Assembly: GCF_020150815.1 (NCBI RefSeq)
Contig: NZ_CP083723.1
Span: 2,914,001 to 2,978,000 of the forward strand
From: Haloprofundus salilacus
Lineage (GTDB): Archaea > Halobacteriota > Halobacteria > Halobacteriales > Haloferacaceae
Direction: 5' to 3'
Length of the DNA: 64,000 nt
Shown here: positions 4,915 to 25,910 of the stretch, one piece after another
How the letters are laid out: the number at the start of each line of letters is the position of its first letter
Numbering within the stretch: the stretch's first letter is position 1
Made by a program: the position numbers and the translations under genes
The notes under the pieces: model-generated
What the model was told of the DNA's origin: nothing
What the model saw: only the letters and a program-made list of their open reading frames with translations
Databases searched by the model: none

Positions 4915-5321
4915 ATCAAAACACTCCTCCTTCGGTTCGACGCTTCGCGTCTCCGGGAGAGCAAAGCTCTCCCGTGCCCTCGCTCACTCCGTTCACGAGA
5001 ACCCCGCTCAGTCGTCGACCGAAAATCGCAGAGCGATTTTCGAACAGCAGAGGGACGGATACCGCACAACTTGGGCTCAGTTTCCAGCCACCCGCGTTCA
5101 ACGATTGTCGACTGCTCCGCACGTATTCGACAGTACAGCGACAGCTACTGCCAATGCCCTTCCACCCCTCCGTTGTCGGCGACATAGCGGCGTGGCCTCC
5201 GGAGATTCTGATAGGATTCGTCGTACTGTTGCTTTGTTCCGTCGCTAGCCAACTCTGTTTCGCCTCTACCCTCTCCCACGACTCTGTCGCCAACGGACAT
5301 ACTAGTCTGAATATTTAGGCT
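4915..5321. other. gene-free spacer with clustered hairpins
   Basis: No credible gene is seen in these 400 bases. Three perfect hairpins lie close together: GACGC-TTC-GCGTC (4939-4951), CGGGAGAGC-AAA-GCTCTCCCG (4954-4974) and CGAAAATCGC-AGA-GCGATTTTCG (5020-5042). They resemble palindromic spacer repeats found widely in haloarchaeal genomes. The rest (5043-5321) shows no codon pattern. Confidence 0.5.
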
Positions 5322-23870: not shown

Positions 23871-23939
23871 TCTACTTCTAAAAAATACAGCGAGAGTTCC
23901 ACGGGTCACCTGACCCGTGGGTGAATCGCGTGCGCTCTC

Positions 23940-24390
23940 CTAATGTTCAGTCTCCTCAATGTACCGACGAACCACATCTTCGGAAACCGCGCCAGTTGTC
24001 CCGACGTAGTATCCGTCCTTCCACAGACCGCTTCCCCAAAAGTACCGCTGTTTGATTTCCGGGTGACGCTTCAGAATCTTTCGACCCGAGTATCCCTTGA
24101 ATTGCTTCGCGATCTCGGCAGGACTCCATTTCGGGTCGGACTCCACAAACAAGTGAACGTGGTCGTTAGCAATCTCCATCGACACAATTTCGTGGCCGAA
24201 CCGCTCGGCAGTCCCTCGGAACAACTCCGAAAGTTCGTCTCGAACTAACTTCAACATCCCGTGTCGATACTAAGCGGAGCGAAGCTCCGCGAGGTACGCA
24301 AAGCTTCGCTTTGCTTGACTTGGGACACCACACGAAATGATATTTACACAAACTAATCGAATGTGCACGACTCCGGTGTTCTCCCATCAT
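23940..24390 (-). pseudogene. tnpA: TnpA Y1 transposase, interrupted by a palindromic insert
   Basis: Single-strand transposase of IS200/IS605. The N-terminal frame ends its family match at SLCKYHFVWCPK; the other frame resumes YRHGMLKLVRDELSELF and contains the HUH motif NDHVHLFVE and the tyrosine region VVRRYIEETEH. Between them 49 bases of hairpin sequence shift the frame. Removal of exactly those bases restores PKYRHGMLK, so the gene was intact before the insertion. The protein is presumably inactive now. Confidence 0.8.
24270..24318. repeat. 49-bp double-hairpin insert in tnpA
   Basis: Contains two neighbouring palindromes, GCGGAGCGAAGCTCCGC (24274-24290) and GCAAAGCTTCGCTTTGC (24298-24314). 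Flanking bases join in frame to restore tnpA if it is removed. Its arms resemble hairpins in the spacer 4915-5042 and common haloarchaeal spacer palindromes, so it may be a small mobile palindromic unit. Confidence 0.7.
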
Positions 24391-24430: not shown

Positions 24431-25747
24431 ATGGGTATCGAAGAAGTCACAAAGACCGCACGCACCCGACTCTGTATAGAGTCTGGTGAGCGGTCGTGGC
24501 TCAAAGATGCCCGTTACACCGCACGAGACATCTCCAACGATACACTCCGTCTCAAACAGCAAGGCTACAACCGGACCGAGATTCAGAAGGAAGTTGACCG
24601 GGATGGATTCCTTCGGAACAACAAGTGTGCGGTCGTCGGGAAAGCCCTACAAGCGTGGGACTCCTACAAAGAACTCCTCAACTGGTGGCACAACCAAGAC
24701 GACACCAACGTCGGGAAACCGTCGCCACCAGCCACAGACAAGAAAGGAACCTACCCACTCGTTATGGCTCACACCGAAGGCTATCGCCTCACCTACGACG
24801 ACGAGGCCGACCGTATTCGGTTCCGTGTGAGTCCGAAGCCGTACAAGAAGGTGAAAGGACACCTTCGAGGGCGACCGGACGACCTCTCGTTGATTGAGAA
24901 AGCCTTGACGGGGGACGAATGGTCGTTGGGGCAGGCCGAACTTCTGTACCGCGATGGCGTGTACTACCTACACGTCACGGTCAAAACCGAGGTTGAAGTA
25001 CCTGAACCTGAAGACGCTGACACACTCATCGGTGTCGATATTAACGAGCGCAACATCGCTCTCACCGCTCTTACTCGTGAGACGATGGACACGCTCGGAA
25101 CCCTCTTGCTTGACTACGGCTCGGTGAAAGCCGAACGCCAACGCTACCACACCATCACGAAACGCTGTCAAGAACACGGCCAACACTCTATCCACCACCA
25201 ACTCGGTGAAAAAGAAGAACGCTACACCGAGTGGATTCTTCACCGAATGTCCCGAGTCGTGGTTGAGTTCGCACAACAGTTCTCGAACCCGGTTATCGTG
25301 TTCGAGGACTTGAGCGGGATTCGAGACGCCATCAAGTACGGCACGTACATGAACCGTCGTCTGCACAAACTACCGTTCCACAAGTTCGAACAACAGGTTC
25401 GCTACAAAGCAACGTGGAACCAGATTCCGTGTGAGGCAGTTGAGTCGCCGTACAACTCGAAGTCGTGTTCGTGCTGTGGTCATCGAGGCCACCGTCAGGG
25501 GCGACGGTTCCGGTGTACGAATGATTCGTGTGCGGTTGAGCAAGACCATGCTGACCGGAACGCGAGCGTGAATGTGGCGTGGCGAGCGTTGGCTAAACAC
25601 GCTGGCATTGATATTGAATCAGTTAATTACCGGACTCACAAAACCCAACCACAGGTTCGGTTGGTGCGTCTGTCCGGGTCGGGGCGCTCTGTAAACCGCC
25701 CATCCTCATCCCGCGAAATCGCTTCGCGTGGAGTGCTTACGACGTAA
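24431..25747 (+). CDS. tnpB: TnpB RNA-guided endonuclease (IS200/IS605)
   Basis: 438 residues, divergent from tnpA. RuvC motifs: LIGVDINERNIALTAL (D), VIVFEDLSGIRDA (E) and DHADRNASVNVAWR (D). Zinc finger CSCCGHRGHRQG with C-T-N-D-S-C. It belongs to another subgroup than the 19788 protein: it has a longer N-terminus (RLCIESGERSWLKDARYTA) and a different linker. The reading is intact and the right-end hairpin follows 20 nt after the stop, so omega-RNA-guided cutting is still possible. Confidence 0.9.
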   Translation: MGIEEVTKTARTRLCIESGERSWLKDARYTARDISNDTLRLKQQGYNRTEIQKEVDRDGFLRNNKCAVVGKALQAWDSYKELLNWWHNQDDTNVGKPSPPATDKKGTYPLVMAHTEGYRLTYDDEADRIRFRVSPKPYKKVKGHLRGRPDDLSLIEKALTGDEWSLGQAELLYRDGVYYLHVTVKTEVEVPEPEDADTLIGVDINERNIALTALTRETMDTLGTLLLDYGSVKAERQRYHTITKRCQEHGQHSIHHQLGEKEERYTEWILHRMSRVVVEFAQQFSNPVIVFEDLSGIRDAIKYGTYMNRRLHKLPFHKFEQQVRYKATWNQIPCEAVESPYNSKSCSCCGHRGHRQGRRFRCTNDSCAVEQDHADRNASVNVAWRALAKHAGIDIESVNYRTHKTQPQVRLVRLSGSGRSVNRPSSSREIASRGVLTT

Positions 25748-25910
25748 GCTGAGGGAACTAGAAAAGCCACGGGTCACCCGACCCGTGGTCGTTTACTAGC
25801 GATTGAGGAGGTTCCTTCGAGCGTACTGAATGAAGTGCGGTATTTTACACTAATGCTGTGCCATCGAAAGCTAAATCTGCAGCTATGAGCGTGAAGAGTG
25901 AAAGCGAGGG

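Follow-up and report, generated by a model that had tools for sequence, protein, structure and literature searches.

How a transposase gene comes to be split by a short palindromic sequence whose excision restores it exactly is the question raised by one locus in the window, a 64,000-nt stretch of the Haloprofundus salilacus genome. The initial annotation described a 49-bp insert of two short-looped palindromes within tnpA and took it for a palindromic unit caught in the act of moving. The coordinates prove exact: removal of positions 24270–24318 rejoins TnpA at CPK^YRHGM (here and below, the caret marks the junction), and the palindromes correspond to two perfect hairpins with 3-nt loops.

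The insert and its host element

The interrupted gene belongs to an IS200/IS605-type element in which tnpA (minus strand) and tnpB (plus strand) are divergent and which is bounded on both sides by near-terminal palindromes (Table 1). Positions 23940–24257, in the 3' part of tnpA, match Y1_Tnp (PF01797, E 1.3e-31), and a whole-genome scan recovers this part at profile positions 14–120 with one TAG. The insert, here assigned to family A, reads CTAAGCGGAGCGAAGCTCCGCGAGGTACGCAAAGCTTCGCTTTGCTTGA on the plus strand and TCAAGCAAAGCGAAGCTTTGCGTACCTCGCGGAGCTTCGCTCCGCTTAG on the tnpA (minus) strand, and is organized in tnpA sense as TCAA-GCAAAGC-GAA-GCTTTGC-GTACCTC-GCGGAGC-TTC-GCTCCGC-TTAG. Empty sites are found in relatives, where tnpA homologues (L013–L025) read ...TGTCCGAAG^TATCGACAC... 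and lack precisely these 49 nt, while the position and length of the insert are identical in L009–L012 and L067. The exact junction can shift by up to 3 nt, as the cut can slide over AGT.

Table 1. Positions of the insert, its parts and its host element (window coordinates; C1 and C2 denote positions elsewhere in the genome).
Feature	Position	Strand	Sequence or basis
Family A double-hairpin element, 49-nt type, between CPK and YRHGM codons of tnpA	24270..24318	-	exact absence in empty homologues
Hairpin 1	24298..24314	-	GCAAAGC GAA GCTTTGC in tnpA sense; perfect 7-bp stem, 3-nt loop
Hairpin 2	24274..24290	-	GCGGAGC TTC GCTCCGC in tnpA sense; perfect 7-bp stem, 3-nt loop
Nearly invariant inter-hairpin region and inner arms	24287..24302	-	TTTGCGTACCTCGCGG in tnpA sense
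5' part of tnpA	24319..24387	-	MGEHRSRAHSISLCKYHFVWCPK; alignment with intact homologues
3' part of tnpA	23940..24269	-	YRHGML...EETEH, stop at 23940; frame differs from 5' part
tnpB, 438 aa, open	24431..25747	+	PF07282 Cas12f1-like_TNB, E 1.7e-13; divergent from tnpA
IS near-terminal palindrome, tnpA side	23899..23920	.	CCACGGGTC-ACCT-GACCCGTGG; 9-bp stem
IS near-terminal palindrome, tnpB side	25767..25788	.	CCACGGGTC-ACCC-GACCCGTGG; 9-bp stem
Fused-end IS derivatives (L003-L006, G000)	C2:2167-2200; C2:70313-70342; C2:103571-103603; C1:232852-232881		

The 49-mer folds far better than shuffled DNA (z about -5), and with DNA parameters the pairing lies within the insert. In the window copy, near-complementarity between the two stems favors one long imperfect hairpin; its 51-nt relatives form a true double hairpin. 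The patterns of hairpins 1 and 2 match once each within the 64-kb window, and the genome-wide search proposed in the initial annotation found the 49-mer in a single copy in its own genome; related copies occur in other genomes.

Elsewhere in the genome, both ends of the window's IS are fused in four solo units, each about 50 bp long (AACAGCGAGAGTTCCACGGGTCACCTGACCCGTGGTCGTTTAC; G000, L003–L006), which resemble terminal-only PATEs. The tnpA-side palindrome is present in these four fused-end copies as well, and the tnpB-side palindrome recurs at four other places in the genome. The insert itself might be such a terminal-only PATE, that is, the fused end hairpins of an IS200/IS605 element without its core, moved by the parent TnpA. 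Terminal-only PATEs are likewise haloarchaeal, palindromic and about 50 bp long, with 52-bp examples described in Haloquadratum (PMC3119063), and the four fused-end derivatives of the window's IS are of similar size. However, terminal-only PATEs derive from IS ends, and the insert is unlike the ends of its host IS: the fused-end derivatives carry the CCACGGGTC..GACCCGTGG palindrome, which has nothing in common with the insert. Furthermore, no IS with family A-like ends was seen among the part of haloarchaeal IS ends covered, and this origin is considered unlikely.

Distribution and variation of family A

A search pattern consisting of hairpin 1 and the linker was applied to 391 Halobacteria genomes from 86 genera. 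It matched 32 places in 28 of the genomes and 23 of the genera (2 matches for the reversed-pattern control). All 31 places with readable flanks lie in tnpA, at one codon boundary (WCPK^YR) and in one orientation, with TGGTGYCYNAAR on one side and, nearly always, TAYCG on the other. The target DNA is TGGTGYCCRAAR^TAYCG, which encodes the conserved WCPK^YR motif. A GTDB-wide species scan yielded at least 80 loci; among the 80 listed, seven were judged true copies, and these share the tnpA site and orientation of the 31 places above. The true matches among those listed were confined to haloarchaeal tnpA, e.g., in Natrinema hispanicum, Halopiger djelfimassiliensis and Natronococcus amylolyticus, and some of these carriers are probably the same organisms as in the 391-genome set. 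Matches on viral contigs, as far as printed, looked like chance and lacked tnpA flanks, and those in a Nanoarchaeota MAG belong to an unrelated A+T-rich repeat.

Two lengths occur, 49 nt with hairpin 2 as GCGGAGC-TTC-GCTCCGC and 51 nt with hairpin 2 as GCGGGATC-NNN-GATCCCGC; either is too short to code, and family A carries no transposase gene. Hairpin 1 of relatives varies in both stem and loop (GC-GAA/GTA/AGA/GGA-GC, TC-GAA/TTC-GA). Loop sequences change freely, and from one copy to another they often look inverted (GAA/TTC, TCC/GGA), while the linker region TTTGCGTACCTCGCGG is retained in all compared copies apart from single changes (e.g., CCACGCGG in L010). The ends read TCAAGC...GCTYAG, with AAGC/GCTT as the only, short inverted match in the 49-nt type. 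Four tnpA families carry the element, named E, S, K, and P in this analysis after their N-termini. The subtypes partly track these hosts, the 49-nt type being found in E and the GTA loop mainly in P, so that transfer between families is rarer than within them.

Effect on the transposase gene

The reading frame is destroyed in 20 of 30 family A copies, through a 49-nt frameshift in six, a TAG contributed by the loop GTA in seven and a TAG at the 3' end in another seven; ten 51-nt copies are open. Judged by these frames, most occupied tnpA genes no longer have an intact reading frame and the insert inactivates transposases. Nor do related tnpA genes all carry the insert in frame, the outcome against which the initial annotation had set its claim: most either lack it or have a copy that shifts the frame or brings in a stop.

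Alternatively, the insert could be spliced from the RNA as a mini-intron or bypassed during translation, so that filled genes would still make TnpA. Bypass elements such as the 50-nt gap of T4 gene 60 and the byps of Magnusiomyces mitochondria resemble family A in their fixed position, length of about 50 nt and double hairpin. In addition, the flanking parts of tnpA are mostly open, and dN/dS is about as low in filled genes, including those interrupted by a stop or frameshift, as in empty genes (0.07–0.17 and 0.07–0.09, respectively). These similar values fit recent insertions, but also a harmless insert; they say little about function after insertion because many of the insertions are recent. 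Filled copies are mostly recent and have near-identical empty sisters, which explains low dN/dS without function, and an earlier reading of the values as conserved function was withdrawn once the tree had revealed these sisters. Bypass is further contradicted by the mismatch between the take-off codon AAG/AAA (AAR before the insert) and the landing codon CAG/TAG (YAG at its end). Inspection by eye showed no bulge-helix-bulge pairing, as in an archaeal intron, at the junctions; moreover, loops freely create TAG, and 49- and 51-nt lengths coexist. The filled clade of L054, L062, and L246 is the best hint that a filled gene might stay under selection. Here, synonymous changes predominate (13, against 3 other changes, for L054/L062). 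Such an excess would be unexpected in an old pseudogene; independent insertions would account for it, and the different loops of the three copies suggest independence. Taken with both sides of the evidence, splicing or bypass is rated as quite unlikely.

Repeated insertion at one site

Compared across tnpA families S, K, and P, inserts share 90–92% identity, while the coding DNA on their flanks shares only 45–52%; E inserts, which represent the 49-nt subtype, share 75–77% with those of the other families. Empty sites predominate, with 33 filled and 82 unfilled among 115 tnpA genes. On a tree of these 115 genes, built with the inserts removed, the filled copies are scattered in a pattern that needs 24 changes; grouping them all into one clade is rejected (p-AU 8e-5). 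Near-identical pairs differ in occupancy, namely L012, filled at two sites, and the empty L014 (98.9%), as well as L058 and L367 (97.8%), although gain and precise loss are not distinguishable for every pair. The simplest reading of these patterns is that a discrete unit has inserted repeatedly and recently at a specific site. The suggestion that a palindromic unit had been caught moving thus gains from filled and empty genes at the same site, near-identical pairs and scattered phylogeny, but the unit differs from spacer palindromes in general: family A was found at no site other than WCPK^YR in tnpA.

The same distribution could in principle have arisen from an old insertion which was inherited with the IS, spread between tnpA genes by homologous recombination and repeatedly lost. 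Haloarchaea recombine freely, and the association of subtypes with host families speaks for such a history. However, the low flank identity between families leaves little homology for recombination, the tree rejects a single filled clade, and flank similarity near the site reveals no co-conversion in E, P, and K and only a weak signal in S (6/300 permutations), which makes this history very unlikely. A unique local mutation in the window's tnpA, for instance a template switch, finds some support in the inverted-looking loops, which suggest strand switching within hairpins. As the origin of the insert it is refuted by the recurrence of this 49/51-nt sequence at one position in 28 sampled genomes, but it may explain the turnover of loops. 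Comparison of the sequences therefore favors, with a probability of roughly 0.75, a site-specific mobile double-hairpin element that has recurrently entered one position of tnpA; this figure excludes the mobilizing enzyme.

Related families at other sites

Two further families share the architecture of family A, and the kinship of A, B, and C is inferred from this architecture only, not from homology. Family C occupies site 0 (WC^PK) as a 45-nt unit of two perfect hairpins with TGTC on both sides, alone in L068 and together with A in L012, L038, L066, and L067. Family B is found at tnpA site 2 (EILS^LHIS) with a 54-nt core (core range 54–60 nt), and B-like units are present at site 3 (HPK^HAPS) in L197 (Natrinema hispanicum DSM 18328) and, in L081 (1167–1360), as a double hairpin nested within the loop of hairpin 1 in a family A tnpA insert. 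In L038, at about 180–330, tnpA seems to lack the segment between sites 2 and 3 and retains one B-like hairpin remnant, possibly the result of a deletion between two inserted copies.

Family B, with the pattern GTCGTY-CGA..TCG-TGATCA-CGA..TCG-RACGAC, is dispersed over 70 of the 391 genomes, from 38 of the 86 genera (0 control matches), and in plasmids, where up to 38 records match at a relaxed score. Across its repeats (L119–L148; plasmid matches H23–H60), ends and linker are conserved while stems change, and 97% of stem positions are Watson-Crick paired in both stems across 40 distinct 54-nt variants; part of this stem variation reflects the near-symmetry of the element. Two copies about 270 bp apart at G344:C23:262311-262645 have different stems. 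The family recurs at fixed sites across genomes, five times at tnpA site 2, and also enters IS200/IS605 ends in the tnpA-adjacent palindrome CCTCGGGG^CTTGACCCCGAGG, which is empty in L039. Insertion is exact at G^C at two sites, without target duplication, and one near-identical pair (99.5%) consists of L125 with family B and the empty L398. A general preference for extruded-hairpin targets was sought for family B and no enrichment over control positions was found. The window's own genome holds no family B copy by the strict pattern and one chance-like match by a loose one.

The initial annotation had also likened the insert to intergenic hairpins at 4939–5042. These hairpins, CGGGAGAGC-AAA-GCTCTCCCG and CGAAAATCGC-AGA-GCGATTTTCG (the latter at 5020–5042), are of the same type, with 3-nt loops, but are not copies of the insert; common descent was rejected, with only weak database matches and no clear plasmid homologue. 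Their stem words are the same as those of family B.

Comparison with known palindromic elements

A literature search retrieved no description of families A, B, or C, and none of the family B core TCGTGATCACGA. The initial annotation knew of no described mechanism for a class of small palindromic units in haloarchaea. A similar kind has, however, already been described there, the short mobile repeats SMR-A of Haloquadratum walsbyi (HqIRS42, 43, and 55), whose mobilization has been called enigmatic (PMC3119063). SMR-A is the nearest described kind; the families are set apart from it by description, not by sequence comparison. Both are short, transposase-free and concentrated in IS605-type transposons or PATEs, which SMR-A elements are thought to inactivate. 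In contrast to the lengths found here (A 49/51 bp, C 45 bp, B core 54–60 nt; overall 45–62 bp), SMR-A elements measure about 110 bp (PMC3119063). They have prominent terminal inverted repeats, which family A lacks while family B has TCGT/ACGA ends, and are more than 95% conserved within a type, whereas stems or loops change here. SMR-A elements are located for the most part in near-terminal palindromes and not in the transposase ORF, unlike family A with its fixed site inside tnpA, though family B does enter one IS-end palindrome. SMR-A is reported from one species as opposed to dozens of genera. It shows no target duplication; of the families described here, B shows none at its two exact G^C sites, the boundary of A is ambiguous by AGT and C has TGTC on both sides.

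REPs and REPINs are likewise short hairpin units, often paired and also found inside genes; GTAG REPs are tied to Y1 transposases and CGTC REPs have no known transposase (PMC3733652, PMC3116915). The GTAG and CGTC tags are absent from family A. Family B resembles CGTC REPs in its TCGTY end beside an 8-bp stem, but this is not the CGTC tag beside an 8–9-bp stem of those REPs and, unlike in CGTC REPs, its tags point outward. CGTC REPs have loops of 4–5 nt and a 3-bp (CCA) tail, whereas families A and B have 3-nt loops and no CCA tail, and the reported phyla of GTAG and CGTC REPs are bacterial (PMC3733652, PMC3116915). Furthermore, REPs are dispersed while family A is bound to one site, and, with regard to the REPIN/RAYT arrangement near a dedicated RAYT (Y1) gene, family A lies inside Y1 transposase genes, though as an insert and not as a flanking end. 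Rickettsia palindromic elements also reside inside protein-coding genes, but are about 150 bp long and keep an open frame in unrelated metabolic genes, whereas family A is mostly frame-breaking in one gene family (PMC10969869). Mitochondrial palindromic GC clusters or double-hairpin elements are gene-free, about 40–50 nt long and spread by insertion, merging and rapid change (PMC4478555); as they are not archaeal, they serve as an analogy only.

Proposed mechanism and significance

On the reading favored here, family A (49 or 51 nt) is a short, protein-less mobile element of two small hairpins, which has entered many unrelated IS200/IS605 tnpA genes in one position and orientation as a discrete unit, without sign of flanks traveling along. 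It would act as a hyperparasite that silences the IS200/IS605 transposases by which it is carried. As WCPKYR is a conserved motif of these TnpA proteins, the DNA encoding it would be a dependable target, and an element aimed at such a conserved stretch of transposase coding DNA would always find new hosts. Homing introns and inteins likewise sit in conserved motifs. The reading in full, a gene-free class of double hairpins of about 50 nt that homes at the DNA level to a conserved IS200/IS605 transposase motif, spreads between unrelated transposons and silences them, is put forward tentatively, at somewhat less than even odds.

Transfer would take place at the DNA level, with the folded single strand cut and joined in trans by a Y1 HUH TnpA. 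The window's genome contains one intact Y1 TnpA elsewhere (C2:155990-156337), in which the core target CCGAAGTACCG is unoccupied and which, as a putative mobilizer, could act in trans. Enzymes of the Y1 class work on single-stranded hairpins, and this activity together with the four fused IS ends of about 50 bp in the genome makes TnpA in trans plausible; REPs, proposed to be moved by RAYTs, provide a parallel. Although the best guess for the mobilizer, a Y1 TnpA acting in trans is nonetheless regarded as rather doubtful.

If the model is true, few known mobile elements with site specificity would be as small as family A, at about 50 nt and without a protein, and its target choice would be as strict as that of homing introns. 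The natural filled and empty pairs in dozens of haloarchaea provide material for testing movement and the role of TnpA, and the findings suggest a layer of hyperparasites which may hold IS200/IS605 elements and their TnpB nucleases in check.
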